Assembly: GCF_003071365.1 (NCBI RefSeq)
Contig: NZ_CP028960.1
Location: 930,001-994,000, forward strand
Direction of reading: 5' to 3'
From: Methyloceanibacter sp. wino2
Lineage (GTDB): Bacteria; Pseudomonadota; Alphaproteobacteria; Rhizobiales; Methyloligellaceae
DNA length: 64,000 bases
The notes under the pieces are model-generated. The model did not search any database and was not told the DNA's origin. It saw only the letters and a program-made list of their open reading frames with translations. A program made the translations under genes and the position numbers. Of this stretch, positions 30,609 through 42,680 are shown piece by piece; the first letter of the stretch is position 1, and the number at the start of each line of letters is the position of its first letter.

Positions 30609-31184
30609 ATGGATACTCTGACGTTCGACAGTGATCACCAGGTGGAGCCGGAGACGATGTCCCCGGATACCGTCCTTGTGTGCCCCTTGAGCCATGTTCA
30701 GGCGACCGTCGCGACAGCGCGCGTGAGCCATTTGGTGACGCTGATCAATGGGGAGACCCTGATCGACACGCCCGAAACCATCGTCCACGAGCGGCATTTG
30801 CGCCTGGCCATGAACGATATCGCCGAACCGCGCGATGGCCTCGTGGTCCCGAGCGAGGACCATGTCGCCAAGCTCATCGAGTTTGCCGGCGACTGGGATC
30901 AAAAGGCGCCGCTGCTCATTCACTGCTGGGCCGGCATCAGCCGCTCCACCGCCGGCGCCTTCGTCGTTCTCTGCGCTCTCAATCCGCATGCGGATGAGCA
31001 TTCCCTGGCGCGCGCCCTGCGCCGCGCCTCCCCTACCGCCTATCCCAACCGGCGGATCGTCGCGATCGCCGACGAGGTTCTTAGCCGCGGCGGCCGCATG
31101 AACGCCGCAGTGGAACATATCGGGCGCGGCCTATTGGCCGAAGAAGGCAAAGTGTTTTCACTACCCGCCAGACACGCGGTCTAG
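30609..31184 (+). CDS. Dual-specificity / tyrosine phosphatase-like protein
   Basis: 191 residues. The phosphatase loop HCWAGISRST (C-x5-R) lies near residue 104, with LLIHCWAG as the strand before it. A general-acid Asp could be in NDIAEPRDG. It resembles alphaproteobacterial protein tyrosine phosphatase-like proteins of unknown substrate. nadQ begins three bases after its stop codon, so the two are cotranscribed. Confidence 0.82.
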   Translation: MDTLTFDSDHQVEPETMSPDTVLVCPLSHVQATVATARVSHLVTLINGETLIDTPETIVHERHLRLAMNDIAEPRDGLVVPSEDHVAKLIEFAGDWDQKAPLLIHCWAGISRSTAGAFVVLCALNPHADEHSLARALRRASPTAYPNRRIVAIADEVLSRGGRMNAAVEHIGRGLLAEEGKVFSLPARHAV

Positions 31185-31187
31185 CCC

Positions 31188-32213
31188 ATGGCGAGCGGGC
31201 GGCGCCATAACGCGGCTGCCGAGACCCATTCGGACGGCAACCCGTCCGCGACCAATCCGCAGATCGAACTCGGCCTCAACGCGGCGATCGTCATGGTCCA
31301 GGACCAGCAGCCGCATATTCTGGTGGTGCGGCCGGGCATAGCGGGCGCGGATCGCCGGGACGCCCTTCCCTTCGGTCCTTTTGCGCCGCGCGCCCATCGC
31401 ACGCTTGAAATCGGGCTGCGTGAATGGGTCGAGTGGCAGACGGGCATCGAGCTCGGCTACGTCGAACAGCTCTACACATTCGGCGACCGCGGCCGGCATG
31501 CGGAGCCGGGCGGTGCCCACACGCTTTCGGTCGGGTATCTGGCCCTAACCCGCGGAACGTCCGCAGACATGCGCGGCGCGCACTGGTCTCCCTGGTACAC
31601 CTATTTCCCGTGGGAAGATTGGCGCGAGGGGAAGCCTCAAATACTCACCGAGGAGATCGAACCGCGCCTGAAGGCCTGGGCCGAACGGCCCCCTTCCCCC
31701 GGCGAGCCGGACCGGCCCTTGCGCCGTCCCGAGCGCCTCAAGATCGGCTTCGGCATCGGCGGCGGCTGGGACGAAGAGAAGGTTCTGGAACGCTACGAGC
31801 TGCTCTACGAAGCGGGCCTCGTGGAGGAAGCCCGGCGTGACGGCCGATCGGCGGCGAACCGCTGGGGCGATCTGCCCGAACTCGGCCGCTCCATGGCGCT
31901 CGACCACAGGCGCATTCTCGCAACCGCCATGGGCCGCGTCCGCGGCAAGCTGAAATACCGGCCTGTGGTGTTCGAACTGCTCCCGCCGGAGTTTACCCTT
32001 TACGACCTGCAAAAAACGGTGGAGTCGATCTCCGGCAGGCTGCTGCACAAGCAGAACTTCCGGCGGCTCGTCGAAAAAGGCGGGCTCGTCGAGCCGACCG
32101 GGAATGTCTCGACCGAGACGGGCGGACGCCCGGCCAAGCTTTACCGCTTTCGCCGCGAGGTCGTCCTGGAGCGTCCCGCTCCCGGGCTGCGCGTGAGCGC
32201 GGGCCGGAGCTAG
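31188..32213 (+). CDS. nadQ: NadQ-type transcriptional regulator of NAD synthesis (Nudix-like plus winged helix, COG4111)
   Basis: 341 residues. The N-terminal half is a Nudix-like fold, but its Nudix box is degenerate: LREWVEWQTG replaces the catalytic REUxEExG, so it likely senses a ligand rather than hydrolyses. The C-terminal half ends with a winged-helix segment: LLHKQNFRRLVEKGGLVEPTG and GGRPAKLYRFRREVV. This architecture matches the alphaproteobacterial COG4111/NadQ family, which represses nadABC. Two matching palindromes lie before nadA about 7 kb away. It is cotranscribed with the phosphatase-like gene upstream. Confidence 0.82.
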   Translation: MASGRRHNAAAETHSDGNPSATNPQIELGLNAAIVMVQDQQPHILVVRPGIAGADRRDALPFGPFAPRAHRTLEIGLREWVEWQTGIELGYVEQLYTFGDRGRHAEPGGAHTLSVGYLALTRGTSADMRGAHWSPWYTYFPWEDWREGKPQILTEEIEPRLKAWAERPPSPGEPDRPLRRPERLKIGFGIGGGWDEEKVLERYELLYEAGLVEEARRDGRSAANRWGDLPELGRSMALDHRRILATAMGRVRGKLKYRPVVFELLPPEFTLYDLQKTVESISGRLLHKQNFRRLVEKGGLVEPTGNVSTETGGRPAKLYRFRREVVLERPAPGLRVSAGRS

Positions 32214-32310
32214 CCCTGAGGCCGCACCTTGGCCCCCTTGAACGGGGGGCCTGGAACAGCGACATTGCAAACGAGACGTTCCGAGCCCCTTTTTCGAGTA
32301 TTGGCCACCG

Positions 32311-35781: not shown

Positions 35782-37173
35782 ATGGCGGACCTTCAGCCCG
35801 AAACGGACCAAGACGGTGACCCGACACTGAATCGGTCGATCGGACCGGTTCAGATGGCACTTTATGGGCTCGGCAGCATGCTGGGCGCAGGCATCTACGG
35901 CCTGATCGGCAAGGCCGCGGGCGAAGTCGGCAACGCCGTTTGGCTCGCCTTCGTCGTCGCACTCATCGCTGCCCTGCTGACGGCCCTGTCCTATGCTTCG
36001 CTAGGCTCACGCTACCCGCGCGCGGCGGGCGCCGTCTACGTGGCGCAACGGGCTTACGGCTTTCCGCTTCTGAGCTTCATGGTCGGACTGGCGCTGGTCT
36101 GTTCGGGACTGACGTCGATCGCCACACAATCCCGGGTGTTCGGCGCGAACTTCCTTGAGCTTTTCGGCCTGAACGGCCTGCCCGTCGCCGCCATCGCCCT
36201 GTGCTATCTGTTCGGGACGACCGCGATCATCTTCCGCGGCATCCAGGAAGCCATGTGGGTGAACGTGCTGTGCACCGTGGTGTCGGTCGCCGGCCTGCTT
36301 CTCGTGGTGGCGGTGGGACTGCCCTATTGGGGCTCGGTCGACTATTTCGAAACGCCGCCCGTGGCGGATGGCGACTTGACGTTCCTCATCGTCATTCAAG
36401 GCGCCGTGCTGGCCTTCTTCGCCTTTATCGGCTTCGAGGACATGTACAACGTCGCCGAAGAAGTGCGCGAGCCGGAGAAGACGATCCCATTCGGGCTGAT
36501 ATCGGCCATGGTGATCGCCGCTGTCGTTTACATTGCCGTGGCGATCACGGCCGTGTCGGTGGTGCCCTGGGACGAGCTGGCCGCGGCGCCCGGCCCCATC
36601 ACCGAGGTCATGGCGCGCGCGGCGCCGATTGTTCCACCCATCCTGTTTACGGCCATCACCATCTTCGCCGTCGCCAACACAGGGTTGGTGAATTTCGTCA
36701 CGTCCTCACGCCTGCTCTACGGCATGGCGCGGCAGAACCTCTTGCCCGATCACCTGGGCAAGGTGCACCGCCAGCGCCGCACACCCCATATCGCCATCCT
36801 GGTCTTGTTCTTGATCCTGGTCCCCTTGGCCCTTGTGGGCACGATCGCCGAGCTTGCCGCCGCCACGGTGCTGCTGCTGCTCACCGTGTTCGCGGTGGTG
36901 AACGGTTCGCTGTTCATCTTAAAGGGGCGCAAAGGCGAGCCGCCGGGCCGCTTCGAAATCCCGCGCATCATCCCGGCGCTGGGGTTCCTCGTGTGCCTCG
37001 GGTTGATCGTCGTGCGCGTGTCGAGCGGCGATTGGGAAGCGCCGGCCATCGCCGGCGGGCTCCTGCTCGCCTCTTTCCTGATTTACCTGCTGATGCGGTG
37101 GCTCGATCCTGACGCCATCAGCGAAATTGGCGAGGACGCGGCCGACGCGGAAGCATCTACCAAAAGCGCTTAA
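35782..37173 (+). CDS. APC family amino acid permease
   Basis: 463 residues from the ATG at 35782; an in-frame start at 35752 is possible. About twelve hydrophobic segments are present. The first helix carries YGLGSMLGAGIYGLIGKAAGEVG, the conserved unwound substrate site of the family. Helix 6 has FFAFIGFEDMYNVAEEVREPEKTIPFG, also typical. It probably takes up amino acids by proton symport; specificity is unknown. Its stop overlaps the convergent L,D-transpeptidase-like gene by four bases. Confidence 0.9.
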   Translation: MADLQPETDQDGDPTLNRSIGPVQMALYGLGSMLGAGIYGLIGKAAGEVGNAVWLAFVVALIAALLTALSYASLGSRYPRAAGAVYVAQRAYGFPLLSFMVGLALVCSGLTSIATQSRVFGANFLELFGLNGLPVAAIALCYLFGTTAIIFRGIQEAMWVNVLCTVVSVAGLLLVVAVGLPYWGSVDYFETPPVADGDLTFLIVIQGAVLAFFAFIGFEDMYNVAEEVREPEKTIPFGLISAMVIAAVVYIAVAITAVSVVPWDELAAAPGPITEVMARAAPIVPPILFTAITIFAVANTGLVNFVTSSRLLYGMARQNLLPDHLGKVHRQRRTPHIAILVLFLILVPLALVGTIAELAAATVLLLLTVFAVVNGSLFILKGRKGEPPGRFEIPRIIPALGFLVCLGLIVVRVSSGDWEAPAIAGGLLLASFLIYLLMRWLDPDAISEIGEDAADAEASTKSA

Positions 37174-38747
37174 GGGCTCGTGGTCGCAAGGCTGCCGTTG
37201 ATCGGCTTGCGCGCGGACTCGGGCGCCTCGGTGGACGGCGCACCCGCCGCTGGAGCCGACGAGGCGTCTTCGGCCGGGGCTGCCGCCGGAAGATTGTCCA
37301 GTTCGTAGACGTCCCCGAACGTCTTTACCGTGCCGTCATCACCGACCACGGCCGTGAAATAGGTCATGTGCACCGGGATCGGCTTCTTGAGGCTGACCCG
37401 GCTCGTCCTGCCGCTTGCGATTTGCTGACGGACGGTCGCGCTGCTGGTGTCATTGCTGGCCGCCAAGATACGCGCGGCAAGGTCTTCCGCGTTGTCGACA
37501 CGGGGGTCCTTGGCGCCATCGGCGCGGTTGTCACGGGCGAACTTGCCGCCAAACGTCGTGGCCCGCATGAAGACCTTCCGGTCGTTCGGAAAGAGGAACT
37601 GCACGTTGCCCATGATGTTCGTCCGGCCGGGCTTCTGCACGAAGGTGAGACCGGACAGGTTGGTCTTCCTCCAGTCAATCGTCTTGGGGTCGACGGTCTT
37701 GCCGCCCTTCTTCACCGTGATGCCGTATTGATCCAGAACGGCCGTGTTGGCGGTGCCGCCGAAGAACGACCCGCTGCCACGCAGCTTGGGCAGCACGTCC
37801 CGGCGGATCACGGCGGATGGCACGATACGTTCCGGATTGAACACGATCTCCGTCATAGCCGCCGAAAGCACCGGGGTCGGCGATCCCGTGGCGCCGACGA
37901 TGGCCTTTTCGGACTCGACCGTCTTGCCGTCTTCGACGGCGTACACCATGAACTCGGGAATGTTCAGCCAAACGTAGGTCGCGCCGAGGTCTTCTGGCAT
38001 CCAGCGCCAGCGATCCATGTTCCGCCGCAGAAGCAGGTCCTCGTTCTCGGACTTGGCATTGGCGAGCGCTTTGCGCAGCCGGACGAACTGCTCGTGTTTC
38101 GGATGAAGCTCCACAAGTACCTCATCCGGTGCAGAGGCGGTCGAGAGTGCCTTCAGCACCTCGGCCGGCGGGCGAATGATGGGCTCGTGGCTATAAATAG
38201 CATTGATGCTCTTCGGTTCGGCGAGACCACCACGGGCCGCGCGCGCATATTTCAATGCAGCGAGGCTGATCGCCAATTCCGTGGCTGCCTGGTCCTCCGC
38301 CGTCCCCGGCTTGTAGTCTTTCGGCGGCACGGGGAAAGCGGTTGGGTCGAGCCCCCAGCTATCCGCTTTTCCGATGAACTCCAGCAGCGCCGCGCCGCGC
38401 TCCGAGAATCCAACGGTCGTCAGCCACAATGCCGGGCCGGTTCGCGTCCGATAGAATTCGGTGAGCGCCGCAACATCGTCCGCATGCTGTCCTTTTTCCA
38501 AGCTGGGCTTGTTGAGCTGCACCTTGATCGCATCCGCGATCATCAATTCTTCCGCCGGCGGCTCGGCGTCTTCTTCCTCGACCTGCACGTCAACCGTGCC
38601 GGTGCCCGGATGATCGGGTATTTCGAGAATGACGGTGTCGTCCGCGCGAGAGGATTGCGGCAAGGAAACTGTCAGGAGGCCGAGTGGGAGCGCGAGGGCG
38701 CATGGCCCCAGCCGTTTAAGGATCGCGAATGAAGCATGCCCACGCAT
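37170..38747 (-). CDS. L,D-transpeptidase (YcbB/LdtD)-like protein lacking the catalytic residues
   Basis: 525 residues with a signal peptide (about residues 1-35, ending SSRAD). The layout is that of E. coli LdtD/YcbB: an N-terminal scaffold (QHADDVAALTEFYRTRTGPALWL), then MDRWRWMPEDLGATYVWLNIPEFMVYAVEDG, VIRRDVLPKLRGSG and NIMGNVQFLFPND. The active-site block differs. Aligned without a gap to LdtD, the catalytic His (YLHDTP) is Arg395 (VFMRATT) and the catalytic Cys (SSGCVRV) is Asp414 (GAKDPRV). The 19-residue spacing and the following RV are kept. It is therefore probably inactive as a transpeptidase and may bind peptidoglycan or regulate another enzyme. Confidence 0.85.
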   Translation of the reverse strand: MRGHASFAILKRLGPCALALPLGLLTVSLPQSSRADDTVILEIPDHPGTGTVDVQVEEEDAEPPAEELMIADAIKVQLNKPSLEKGQHADDVAALTEFYRTRTGPALWLTTVGFSERGAALLEFIGKADSWGLDPTAFPVPPKDYKPGTAEDQAATELAISLAALKYARAARGGLAEPKSINAIYSHEPIIRPPAEVLKALSTASAPDEVLVELHPKHEQFVRLRKALANAKSENEDLLLRRNMDRWRWMPEDLGATYVWLNIPEFMVYAVEDGKTVESEKAIVGATGSPTPVLSAAMTEIVFNPERIVPSAVIRRDVLPKLRGSGSFFGGTANTAVLDQYGITVKKGGKTVDPKTIDWRKTNLSGLTFVQKPGRTNIMGNVQFLFPNDRKVFMRATTFGGKFARDNRADGAKDPRVDNAEDLAARILAASNDTSSATVRQQIASGRTSRVSLKKPIPVHMTYFTAVVGDDGTVKTFGDVYELDNLPAAAPAEDASSAPAAGAPSTEAPESARKPINGSLATTSP

Positions 38748-38906
38748 CCTACAAGTCCCCGCTTACCGCCTTCAGGGTAATCCGGGATGCCCCTATCTGC
38801 CAACCACAACTGGTCTACCCGCCCAACCCTCGCCCGAACCGGTTTTTCGGGGTCTCGGAGTAACGTCTTGATAGGCCCCATGAAAATTGTGCAAAGCAGC
38901 GACGCC

Positions 38907-38948
38907 TTGAAGAATAAGGATAAAATGCTATACTCAGTATGAGAATAG
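38907..38948 (+). promoter_or_regulatory. Upstream nadA promoter with NadQ-type operator
   Basis: The -35-like TTGAAG (38907-38912) and the -10-like TATACT (38929-38934) are 16 bases apart. The operator overlaps this -10: CTATACTCA (38928-38936), a 3-base spacer GTA, and TGAGAATAG (38940-38948), a 21-base palindrome with one mismatch. The same half-site recurs downstream. A repressor bound here would block the promoter. Confidence 0.62.
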
Positions 38949-38982
38949 CGCTGATGTGCGCGGTCGAGGAAACGCGCCGGCC

Positions 38983-39029
38983 TTGAGCCGGACCTTTTTA
39001 CACCCTATATATACTCATATTGAGTATAT
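38983..39029 (+). promoter_or_regulatory. Proximal nadA promoter with perfect NadQ-type operator
   Basis: TTGAGC (38983-38988) and TATATA (39006-39011) are 17 bases apart, a good sigma-70 layout. Overlapping the -10 is the perfect 21-base palindrome ATATACTCA-TAT-TGAGTATAT (39009-39029). It ends 19 bases before the nadA ATG, and AGGAGG (39034-39039) lies between. The centre is 81 bases from that of the upstream operator. Repression by the encoded NadQ is inferred. Confidence 0.72.
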
Positions 39030-39048
39030 CATCAGGAGGCCGATAGAG

Positions 39049-40116
39049 ATGGAATCCGTTCAAATTGGGAGTGAGGCCTGGGAGGCCAAGGCACAGGCCG
39101 TGCTGCCTTCCGAGCTCGTTCCCGATCTCACGTATACGCCCGAAGTGGCCCGCGAGACCGCGCATCTGTATGAGCGTGTCGCGCGCGTGATTCCGCCTGT
39201 CGAATGGCCCCAATTCGCGCCTTACGTGAAGGCCATCAACGATCTGAAGCAGGTCCGCAACGCGGTTGTCCTGGCGCATAACTATATGACGCCGGAGATC
39301 TACAATTGCGTGGCCGACGTGGTCGGCGACTCCTTGCAGCTTGCGCGCGAGGCCGCGAAGGCCGACGCCGAGGTGATCGTCCAGTGCGGCGTACACTTCA
39401 TGGCGGAGACGTCGAAGCTGCTCAATCCCGACAAGAAAGTTCTGATCCCCGATAGCCGCGCCGGCTGTTCGCTGGCGGAATCGATCACGGGTGAGGATGT
39501 CCGCGCGTTGCGCGAGGCCTATCCCGGTGTTCCCGTGGTCACGTACGTGAACACGTCAGCCGATGTGAAAGCCGAGTCCGACATTTGCTGCACGTCGTCG
39601 AATGCCGTGCGCGTGGTTGAGTCTCTCGGCGCGAAACGGGTAATCATGATCCCCGACGAATTTCTCGCCAAATGGGTTCAAACCCAGACGGATGTCGAGA
39701 TCATCACCTGGAAGGGTCACTGCGAAGTGCATGAGCGCTTCACCGCCGAGGAGCTTCGCGTCTATCGGGAGAGTGATCCGGGCGTGAAGATTATCGCGCA
39801 CCCCGAGTGTCCGCCCGAGGTGATCAACGAGTCCGACTTCACGGGTTCGACCTCCGGCATGATCAAATGGGTCGAGGATAATCAGCCTTCCAAGGTGCTG
39901 CTCGTGACCGAGTGCTCAATGAGCGACAACGTCGCGGTCGAAGCGCCGAACACCCAGTTCGTGCGGCCCTGTAACCTCTGCCCGCATATGAAGCGCATCA
40001 CGCTGCCGAAGATCCTCGATAGCCTCATCTTCATGAAGGAAGAGGTGACCGTCGATCCGGCCGTGGTGGAGCCCGCCCGCGCCGCCGTCGAGCGGATGAT
40101 CAATCTCAACCACTAG
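39049..40116 (+). CDS. nadA: Quinolinate synthase
   Basis: 355 residues from the ATG at 39049, which has AGGAGG nine bases upstream. It condenses iminoaspartate and dihydroxyacetone phosphate to quinolinate using a 4Fe-4S cluster. Key segments: [62 protein letters not shown]-type [11 protein letters not shown], and [16 protein letters not shown] with the last cluster cysteine. nadB and nadC follow on the same strand. Confidence 0.97.
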
Positions 40117-40149
40117 CGTGTGCGTCAGTACGACGTCGAAAGGACAGCG

Positions 40150-41772
40150 ATGACGAACGGCAGTCCATCCTTTGTGCCGAGAAACGCCGCTGACAGCGTG
40201 GTAGTTGTCGGCGCCGGCCTTGCGGGTCTCTTTACGGCCCTCAAGCTTGCGCCGCTGAACGTCACCGTCATCTCGCCCGCGCCGATCGGCGAAGGTGCGT
40301 CCAGCGTTTGGGCGCAAGCCGGTATCGCGGCGGCGCTGTCCGAAGGCGACACGCCCGAGGACCATGCGGCCGATACCGTGCGCGCCGGGGCCGGGATCGT
40401 GGATGAAGCCGTGGCGCTTCTGATGGCACGAGAGGCCCGGGCCCGGATCGAGGATTTGCTGCGTTACGGCGTGCCCTTCGACAAGGACCTCGAAGGCAAG
40501 CTGACCTTCGGCCACGAAGCCGCTCACCGCACCAACCGCATTCTGCATGTCAAAGGCGACACGGCCGGCCGTTCCATCATGAGCGCCATCATCGCCGCGG
40601 TGCGCAAGACGCCGTCGATCACCGTGCTCGAGGGCGTGGCCGCGCGCGATTTGGTCGTCCACAAGGGACGCGTCCGGGGCATCGTCCTTGCGCCTACCAC
40701 AGAGGAATCTCAAACGGACACCTTTGTCCTGCCCGCGCGGGCGGTGGTGCTCGCGACCGGCGGCGCCGGTCACCTTTACTCGGTCACCACCAATCCGGTC
40801 GAGGCGCGTGGCGAAGGTGTCGCCATCGCCGCGCGCGCCGGCGCAGTGATCGCCGACGCTGAATTCGTGCAATTCCATCCCACCGCGATCGATATCGGCC
40901 GCGATCCGGCGCCGCTCGCCACCGAAGCGCTTCGGGGCGCGGGGGCACTGCTCATTAACCGCAAGGGCGAGCGCTTCATGCGCGCCGTTCACCAGGATGC
41001 CGAGCTCGGCCCGCGCGACGTGGTCGCGCGCGCCGTCCATCGCGAGGTCGTGAGCGGGCGCGGCGCGTTTCTCGATTGCCGTCCGATCGGCCCCGGTATC
41101 GCAGAGAAGTTTCCCACGGTCGCGTCGACCTGCCGTTCGGCTGGGATCGACCCGGCGCAGGAGCCCATCCCGGTGGCGCCGGCGGCGCATTATCACATGG
41201 GTGGCGTTCTGGTCGACGTACAAGGACGCAGCACCGTCGACGGCTTGTGGGCCTGCGGCGAGGTAACCTCGACGGGCGCGCACGGCGCGAACCGTCTTGC
41301 CTCGAACTCGCTTCTCGAAGCCGTCGTATTCGGCGCCCGTGTCGCAGAGGACATCACCGCTGGCCTGCCCCCGCTGCCGCCTCAGGATCTGCACGCGGTC
41401 GCGCGCGCCAGCGGCGGGATCTACCGCAACAGCCAGGCGGAGCGGACGCTCCGCGAGACCATGTCGGCCAATGTGGGCGTTGTCCGCGATGCTGACGGGC
41501 TGTCGGAGGCCCTCGGGACAATCATCGCTCTCGAGCGCGAGAACGAAGGCGATCCGCAGCTTGCGAACATGCTGACGACGGCCAAGTTCGTGGCCACGGC
41601 TGCCTTTGCCCGGACCGAAAGCCGCGGGGCGAATTTCCGCAGCGACTATCCTGCGCCCGAAGAGGCTCAGGCCAGACGTAGCTTCCTGACCCTGGATCAG
41701 GCTGACGAGTTTGCCCGCGAGGCCGCCGGCATCGCCAGTCCGCCGCGTCTGCGCGTCGTCAGCCAGGCGTAG
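40150..41772 (+). CDS. nadB: L-aspartate oxidase
   Basis: 540 residues from the ATG at 40150, which has AAAGGA upstream. It is an FAD enzyme that oxidises aspartate to iminoaspartate for NadA. The nucleotide-binding VVVVGAGLAGLFTALKLAP is at the N-terminus; ILHVKGDTAGRSIM, LATGGAGHLYSVTTNP and EFVQFHPTAID are typical, as is GEVTSTGAHGANRLASNSLLEAVVFG. It follows nadA by 33 bases. Confidence 0.97.
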   Translation: MTNGSPSFVPRNAADSVVVVGAGLAGLFTALKLAPLNVTVISPAPIGEGASSVWAQAGIAAALSEGDTPEDHAADTVRAGAGIVDEAVALLMAREARARIEDLLRYGVPFDKDLEGKLTFGHEAAHRTNRILHVKGDTAGRSIMSAIIAAVRKTPSITVLEGVAARDLVVHKGRVRGIVLAPTTEESQTDTFVLPARAVVLATGGAGHLYSVTTNPVEARGEGVAIAARAGAVIADAEFVQFHPTAIDIGRDPAPLATEALRGAGALLINRKGERFMRAVHQDAELGPRDVVARAVHREVVSGRGAFLDCRPIGPGIAEKFPTVASTCRSAGIDPAQEPIPVAPAAHYHMGGVLVDVQGRSTVDGLWACGEVTSTGAHGANRLASNSLLEAVVFGARVAEDITAGLPPLPPQDLHAVARASGGIYRNSQAERTLRETMSANVGVVRDADGLSEALGTIIALERENEGDPQLANMLTTAKFVATAAFARTESRGANFRSDYPAPEEAQARRSFLTLDQADEFAREAAGIASPPRLRVVSQA

Positions 41773-41816: not shown

Positions 41817-42680
41817 ATGAATACCCCGGAACTGCTCACCCCGCTGCCACGGCGCCTCGTGGAAACGGCCGTGCGCACGGCTCTCGAAGAGGACCTTGGC
41901 CTCGTGGGCGACATCACCACGGATCCCATTATTCCCGCCGATGCGCGCGGTGCCGCCTCGATTGTCGTCCGTGAACCGGCCTGCATTGCGGGCCTCGATC
42001 TCGCGGAGGCCGCATTCCGTGCGCTCGATGCGGATGTGAATTTCGAGCGGCTGGTTGAGGACGGCGGCACGGCCGAAGCAGGCACGGCCATCGGCCGGGT
42101 GGAAGGATTGACGCGCGCGCTGCTGACCGGGGAGCGCACGGCGCTGAACTTCCTCGGGCGCCTCTGCGGAATCGCGACGCTGACGGCCGCCTATGTCGCG
42201 GCGGTCGACGGCACCGGCGCGCGGATCGCCGATACCCGCAAGACGACGCCCGGTTTGCGGGGGCTGGAGAAATACGCGGTGCGCTGCGGCGGCGGCGTGA
42301 ACCACCGTTTTGGCCTCTATGACGCGGTGCTGGTCAAGGACAACCACATCGCCGCGGCCGGCGGGATCGGCGCGGCGCTCTCACACTTGCGCGCGCGCGG
42401 CGGTCACATGGTCAAGATCGAAGTGGAAGTGGATACGCTCGACCAGCTGCGCGAGGCGCTCGCCCACCCGATCGACGCAGTCTTGCTGGACAATATGGAT
42501 CCGGCGACCCTCAAAGAGGCCGTGACAATTGCAGACGGTCAGGTGGTGACCGAAGCGTCGGGCGGCGTGACGTTGGAGAGTGTCGCGGAAATCGCGCGGA
42601 CGGGCGTCGACCTGATCTCAGTCGGAGCCCTTACTCACTCGCCCCGTAACCTAGACTCATCACTTGAGTGGGAGCGGTAG
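41817..42680 (+). CDS. nadC: Nicotinate-nucleotide diphosphorylase (carboxylating)
   Basis: 287 residues. It converts quinolinate and PRPP to nicotinate mononucleotide. Signatures: EDLGLVGDITTDPIIP at the N-terminus, GERTALNFLGRLCGIATLTAAYV, IADTRKTTPGLRGLEKYAVRCGGGVNHRFGLYDAVLVKDNHI, and VLLDNMDPATLKEAV. It completes the nadABC unit, and its last 50 bases overlap the 3' end of the convergent cell-wall hydrolase gene. Confidence 0.97.
   Translation: MNTPELLTPLPRRLVETAVRTALEEDLGLVGDITTDPIIPADARGAASIVVREPACIAGLDLAEAAFRALDADVNFERLVEDGGTAEAGTAIGRVEGLTRALLTGERTALNFLGRLCGIATLTAAYVAAVDGTGARIADTRKTTPGLRGLEKYAVRCGGGVNHRFGLYDAVLVKDNHIAAAGGIGAALSHLRARGGHMVKIEVEVDTLDQLREALAHPIDAVLLDNMDPATLKEAVTIADGQVVTEASGGVTLESVAEIARTGVDLISVGALTHSPRNLDSSLEWER

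Follow-up and report, generated by a model that had tools for sequence, protein, structure and literature searches.

The window that we analysed is a 64,000-nucleotide stretch of the genome of Methyloceanibacter sp. wino2 (contig NZ_CP028960.1, positions 930,001 to 994,000). It carries the genes nadA, nadB and nadC and, further upstream, the gene of the regulator NadQ (Table 1). Two NadQ palindromes lie between the start of nadA at 39049 and a divergent L,D-transpeptidase-like gene. Between these palindromes there is a hairpin followed by a T-run, which the first-pass annotation of this DNA had overlooked.

Table 1. Genes, operators and leader features of the nad region, in window coordinates
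Feature	Positions	Strand	Details and basis
nadQ, NadQ (COG4111-type) repressor, 341 aa	31188-32213	+	phmmer to 7q91_A
L,D-transpeptidase-like gene	37170-38747	-	
P1 -35, TTGAAG	38907-38912	+	promoter scan
NadQ operator 1	38927-38949	.	core 38930-38946, ATACTCAGTATGAGAAT, one mismatch
P1 -10, TATACT	38929-38934	+	promoter scan; overlaps operator 1
Leader hairpin, CCGGC-CTTGA-GCCGG	38977-38991	+	-9.0 kcal/mol, 5-bp stem
Candidate P2, CTTGAG-N17-CTATAT	38982-39010	+	-35 38982-38987 (overlaps hairpin loop), -10 39005-39010; by eye
T-run after hairpin (predicted release or stall zone)	38995-38999	+	sequence
NadQ operator 2	39009-39029	.	core 39011-39027, ATACTCATATTGAGTAT, 0 mismatches; 19 nt past stem
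RBS, AGGAGG	39034-39039	+	sequence
nadA, quinolinate synthase	39049-40116	+	PF02445 378 bits; NF006878 above cut-off
nadB, L-aspartate oxidase	40120-41772	+	NF005701 716 bits vs cut-off 528
nadC, nicotinate-nucleotide diphosphorylase	41817-42680	+	TIGR00078 318 bits vs cut-off 198

The NadQ-type protein that had been proposed about 7 kb upstream of nadA was confirmed. Indeed, the nadQ product is a full-length homologue of PDB entries 7Q91-7Q94 (phmmer E 3.7e-85 to 7q91_A, over residues 30-339 of 341) and it is the single match in the genome. Among the matches listed, the best named relative is the NadQ of M. methanicus, with 92% identity. The C-terminal NrtR winged-helix domain (PF21906) scores 77.9 bits, over the cut-off of that model. 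While this DNA-binding domain is homologous to that of the NrtR/NtrR family, the protein differs from the family in scoring 66.9 bits against the NCBIfam NtrR equivalog, below its cut-off of 400. The canonical Nudix box has the form GX5EX7REXXEEXG; no match to this motif is present in NadQ, in line with the degenerate box that had been noted from the sequence. ATP reportedly weakens DNA binding by the characterised NadQ. In the title of Minazzato 2022, as cited in PMC11452294 and PMC12421817, the protein is called "Nudix-like, ATP-responsive", and the available text of PMC12421817 describes it as a repressor. This speaks against the initial proposal of a NAD-dependent repression; for the NadQ of Methyloceanibacter, both ATP binding and operator binding are predicted.

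In many relatives nadQ lies directly upstream of nadA, whereas here it is 6.8 kb away, and no sign of nadQ autoregulation was found, as positions 30701-31200 hold no NadQ site with up to 4 mismatches. Among 55 loci with both genes, which were partly chosen for nadQ, 33 have nadQ within 800 nt upstream of nadA and on the same strand. In Methyloceanibacter the two genes are separated by 6.8-8.5 kb, with several genes in between.

The two ATACTCA-N3-TGAGTAT palindromes before nadA had been described as one perfect over 21 bases and one with a single mismatch, with centres 81 bases apart, and the coordinates bear this out. With its flanks, operator 1 consists of 10-base arms with one mismatch and operator 2 of two perfect 9-base arms around 3 bases, the centres being at 38938 and 39019. 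Palindromes with up to 3 mismatches are expected 0.48 times in the window, and at least two sites were obtained in 6 of 100 shuffles; the two observed have 0 and 1 mismatch. The scan for further sites that had been suggested was carried out on the whole 3.21-Mb genome with the published consensus, ATRCTCANNNTGAGYAT. With up to 1 mismatch it returned 4 places, namely both nadA sites and two sites within long ORFs. The latter, a perfect match at genome position 1260712 and a one-mismatch site at 32257, were rejected as further regulon members because they fall inside ORFs, and the nadA operators are the sole non-coding sites at this threshold in this Methyloceanibacter genome. The gene at 31188-32213 and both nadA palindromes are thus an ordinary member of the known NadQ regulon of alpha- and betaproteobacteria (PMC5343134; 7Q91-7Q94), with which they share the regulator family, the operator ttATRCTCannntGAGYATaa and the core targets nadABC. 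The regulation of nadABC by NadQ through two operators, as first proposed, agrees with this published consensus and with the match to 7Q91. The available text of PMC5343134 differs in describing sites and targets, with no leader hairpin, T-run or fixed spacing.

The hairpin between the operators has the GC-rich stem and following T-run that serve as criterion for an intrinsic terminator (ACCTTTTT). It is probably a weak one, at which release of the RNA is predicted. Taken in the window alone the hairpin is not unusual, since 2 terminator-like stems were found in 38400-39600 and 0.9 in shuffles. The 120-nt leader folds no better than its shuffles (z -1.11), and the hairpin is broken in the minimum free energy fold and kept in the centroid. 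Shorter stretches around the hairpin retain it when folded. A second hairpin is formed by the transcribed operator, and both fold in the leader RNA. A known riboswitch or leader element was rejected, as Rfam covariance models gave no match in 38700-39200 up to E 5. A leader-peptide attenuator was also rejected: an ORF ending in the hairpin occurs in 2 of the 15 leaders of the genus (L089 and L091) and is not conserved.

We then turn to the position of the stem in the order (Rhizobiales). The set started from 204 nadA leaders, 183 of which have a NadQ site (up to 2 mismatches); 138 were non-redundant, 137 of these have 120 nt upstream and 136 are free of N, the broken nadA of one genome (L103-L106) being left out. 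To pass the strict test, a stem had to be fully paired over 5 bp or more, contain no fewer than 4 G-C pairs, enclose a loop of 3-9 and end 17-22 nt ahead of the last NadQ site. Such a stem is present in 72 of 137 leaders and absent from 65, against 0-4 in 20 dinucleotide-shuffle sets. The distance peaks at exactly 19 nt (38 leaders), and no 6-nt bin outside nt 13-24 rises above 9. A looser stem score is less clean (85 of 136, with 9-16 in shuffles). The mean folding energy in 24-nt windows points to the same place, with one sharp minimum of -7.9 kcal/mol for the window whose end lies 15 nt ahead of the site and values of -2.4 to -4.0 elsewhere. T is enriched at positions 2-7 past the stem (0.53-0.81); a clear T-run is missing after some Hyphomicrobium stems (L038, L054, L056).

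The leader element is a paired stem and not a sequence motif, and its two arms covary. When the 5′ part was exchanged with that of other genomes, stems were seen in 34 leaders on average (maximum 46 in 200 rounds) instead of 74 of 136, and among leaders without the CCGGC...GCCGG core in 5.8 (maximum 12) instead of 21 of 83. In alignment A1, double changes are seen at 5/5 pairs, with 88.2% paired, in rows that were chosen for having a stem and are therefore biased to structure. Its 78 rows derive from 85 stem leaders, 80 of which passed a distance and loop filter, L183 and L228 being excluded as doubtful stems. Because of this selection, the swap test is fairer than the A1 pair counts.

The element is also specific to nadA. 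A covariance model of the hairpin, its tail and the operator (R1) was run on 199 whole genomes of the order. Its 81 matches come from 73 genomes and every one falls in the 600 nt upstream of nadA, 72 in sense and 9 on the opposite strand at nadA, as the operator is palindromic, with 0 elsewhere. Since R1 was trained on leaders from these and related genomes and strict filters were applied in the search, these counts tell of specificity and not of sensitivity. Of 185 leaders with a NadQ site, 89 have a terminator-like hairpin, compared with 1 of 42 that lack a site (rows not de-duplicated); in three of the 42 (L153, L167, L182) a site exists further upstream than the 300 nt covered. Another three leaders, with 3 mismatches in their best site, were counted separately and have no hairpin (0/3). 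The plain pattern CCGGCN{3,9}GCCGGN{16,20}ATRCTC matches in 167 of 387 genomes of the class and is useless as a discriminator. Within the genus, the hairpin core is kept in 14 of 15 leaders and a perfect site 2 in all 15 (the row that bears the label L103 shows the L017 leader). Two Methyloligella leaders (L019, L107) lack an upstream NadQ site with up to 3 mismatches; they have a perfect operator 2 and a longer hairpin, CCGGCACA...TGTGCCGG.

Outside the order, 78 genera of the class with a strong nadA hit, none of which had served to discover the element, were each represented by a single genome, drawn among the matches listed and picked regardless of R1; six same-order genomes and weak nadA hits (<250 bits) were left out, and 57 genera have a NadQ site. 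Among the matches listed, a stem is found in 14 of 57 genera under the strict test (shuffles 0-2; the other 43 fail it) and in 24 of 57 under a relaxed one (shuffles 0-6). The minimum of the folding energy is shallower than in the order, at -5.5 against -1.9 to -3.9 kcal/mol elsewhere (24-nt windows). The hairpin goes with the two-operator layout: among the matches listed, the relaxed form is present in 19 of 25 leaders that have an upstream site (up to 3 mismatches, 40-100 nt away) and in 5 of 32 that do not (Fisher 7.7e-6), and the strict form in 11 of 25 and 3 of 32. A canonical promoter is seen at operator 1: in 17 of these 25 two-site leaders, again among the matches listed, TTGAC stands no more than 16 nt ahead of the upstream site. 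Over the class, R1 matches in 52 of 377 genomes, of which 50 do not belong to the order; 18 of these 50 genomes were inspected (L287-L304) and 18/18 matches are at nadA. An alternative layout has both sites at one promoter of TTGAC type (TTGACA); the two NadQ sites are separated by about 26-28 nt and a hairpin is missing (for example L208, L213, L216, L232 and L235; L327, L338 and L342). Looping between the operators, or helical phasing, was rejected, as all values of 59-70 occur among the operator spacings of the hairpin group, together with 55 and several of 74-90, so that no phase is kept.

We give about an even chance to the reading in which nadABC has a NadQ-repressed leader made of P1 with operator 1, followed by a weak terminator coupled to a roadblock at operator 2, in other words a repressor-gated attenuation. 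The idea of a repressor-gated intrinsic terminator, whose fixed spacing would put the NadQ-stalled polymerase on the U-run and turn a roadblock into programmed termination, is held a little more tentatively, just short of even. The distance between stem and operator 2 is near-constant; something would have to measure from an RNA hairpin to a DNA-bound protein, and the elongating polymerase is the natural link. The hairpin itself, its base pairing and its place are established by the sequences, from which we infer termination, roadblocking and control by ATP as follows. Transcription would start mainly at P1 and would have to cross the hairpin. NadQ bound to operator 1 would block initiation, and NadQ bound to operator 2 would act as a roadblock to any polymerase that escaped. 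The spacing would set the RNA end of this stalled polymerase at the U-run just past the hairpin, and the hairpin, too weak for full termination alone, would release it, or at least stop it from sliding backwards and dislodging NadQ by repeated pushes. Once NadQ has come off the DNA, with ATP as the published type of effector, the polymerase would read through into nadABC.

Known geometry is compatible with this proposal. Intrinsic terminators generally release RNA 7-8 nt past the stem. A rigid DNA-bound roadblock was reported, in the available text, to halt E. coli polymerase 14 nt short of its site (PMC5499547), and the same offset here gives 39011-14 = 38997, which is, approximately, within the T-run and 6 nt past the stem, close to that release distance. 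At the same kind of roadblock, backtracking by 2-4 nt is described in the available part of a preprint (PMC13082048), which would bring the RNA end to the first bases of the T-run or immediately upstream of them. In the same preprint, where the obstacle is another polymerase, a nascent hairpin behind the stalled enzyme gave a more uniform stopping place, as would be the case here; it also made the collided complexes longer-lived, not shorter. Thus, the hairpin may serve both to hold and to release the polymerase, the T-run favouring release over holding.

The number of promoters bears directly on this proposal. It had been suggested that each operator overlaps the -10 of a promoter of its own, and for operator 1 this stood. 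P1, TTGAAG-N16-TATACT with TG ahead of its -10, is the sole promoter from a scan of 38400-39600 (1, with 0.4 expected in shuffles), and TTGA[AT]G-N15-17-TATACT is kept in 14 of the 15 genus leaders. For operator 2 the evidence is divided. P2 was not picked up by the same scan, and its -35 position is taken up by a hairpin whose conservation extends far outside the genus. Two independent promoters, each repressed by NadQ at its own -10, would leave the hairpin either to stop P1 transcripts, with P2 as the main promoter, or to be incidental. In favour of this reading, CTTGAG-N17-CTATAT, which we take to be near the alphaproteobacterial consensus, reads well as a promoter, and a P2-like pair is present in 13 of the 15 genus leaders. 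Moreover, 55 of the 85 leaders of the hairpin group in the order reach the promoter score threshold (9-20 of 85 in shuffles), and the best promoter of these 55 is at site 2 in 15. In the other 40 it is upstream of the hairpin, which counts for P1 as the main promoter. We regard two independent promoters as rather unlikely. Indeed, what stands at the -35 position in many other lineages is just the 3′ arm of the hairpin, whose sequence changes, and TTGAC within 40 nt before the last site is found in 3 of 85 leaders with a hairpin versus 11 of 51 without. This reading also leaves unexplained the locked distance and the near absence of hairpins where there is no NadQ site. P2 may exist in this genus, yet it would be neither general nor what holds the layout elsewhere, and the best reading of the sequences is a single main promoter, P1, with operator 1.

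The hairpin could also act as a constitutive weak terminator, a basal attenuator or an insulator against upstream transcription, whatever NadQ does on operator 2. Stem and T-run do resemble an intrinsic terminator, and the 33 of 55 loci with nadQ just upstream on the same strand would offer a transcript to insulate from. In the window the gene before the leader is divergently oriented, which leaves the P1 transcript as the only one from upstream that could be stopped. Furthermore, the stem is locked to operator 2, with a standard deviation of the distance of 1.0 nt in 34 leaders of the order and 1.3 nt in 19 outside it (values bounded by the search window, unlike the strict-test histogram), while the gap between operator 1 and the stem varies (8.3 and 4.1, respectively). 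We therefore hold a constitutive role to be improbable. A post-transcriptional RNA element, in which the hairpin and the operator hairpin would be bound by a protein or would set mRNA stability or translation, fits with the folding of both hairpins in the leader RNA and with covariation, the mark of a base-paired stem. It appears very unlikely when set against the lack of any Rfam match up to E 5, the nearly constant company of a NadQ DNA site and the variable distance from the site to the nadA start. Finally, NadQ bound at the promoter could ride with the polymerase through the terminator, as AlpA does in antitermination; the succession of a promoter-proximal site and a terminator is that of AlpA systems, according to the available text of PMC9371919. 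NadQ is described as a repressor (PMC12421817, available text) and the distance lock is to the downstream operator, which makes this last reading scarcely credible.

Regulation by NadQ and roadblocking are already known; what is new is the hairpin between the sites, at a fixed distance before operator 2, and with it a repressor that may decide whether transcription stops in the leader. In roadblock repression by LacI, PurR, CcpA and CodY, a repressor site past the start blocks elongation, as is predicted here; the releasing factors named in the available text of a review are Mfd and possibly Rho (PMC10310618), whereas here a hairpin and a U-run lie at the predicted stall point. The attenuation of trpRBA by YtgR in Chlamydia is similar in that a metabolite-responsive repressor shuts down a promoter and, at its operator, also ends transcripts that began at another promoter further upstream (PMC6504234). 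It differs in the regulator and the operon, and no conserved fixed-distance hairpin with a T-run is described in the available text. In the parts of the open-access literature available to us, we came across no description of a NadQ operator coupled to a hairpin, nor of an intrinsic terminator with a repressor roadblock set at its U-run.

The proposal concerns how cells tighten repressor roadblocks: polymerase may force its way past the bound protein, and its release is commonly attributed to Mfd or Rho. With its conserved place at the predicted stall point, the hairpin with its U-run would give the leader a release or holding device of its own. If the proposal is true, several alphaproteobacterial families, within the order and beyond it, would share an ancient device for controlling NAD synthesis, and a second, elongation-level control step would join the NadQ regulon. 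It would perhaps be a general design that other repressors share, and the fixed spacing between hairpin and operator provides a search rule for them.

Two further stretches were noted beside the NadQ sites. Between the T-run and operator 2, a (C/G)GCCC stretch (39001-39005 in the window) is enriched order-wide at -10 to -6 before the site, with C at 0.54-0.76 in the last three positions. Six leaders of the order without a hairpin (L132, L137, L144, L150, L152 and L156) have in common a TATCATA(G/C)TT stretch immediately before the NadQ site.
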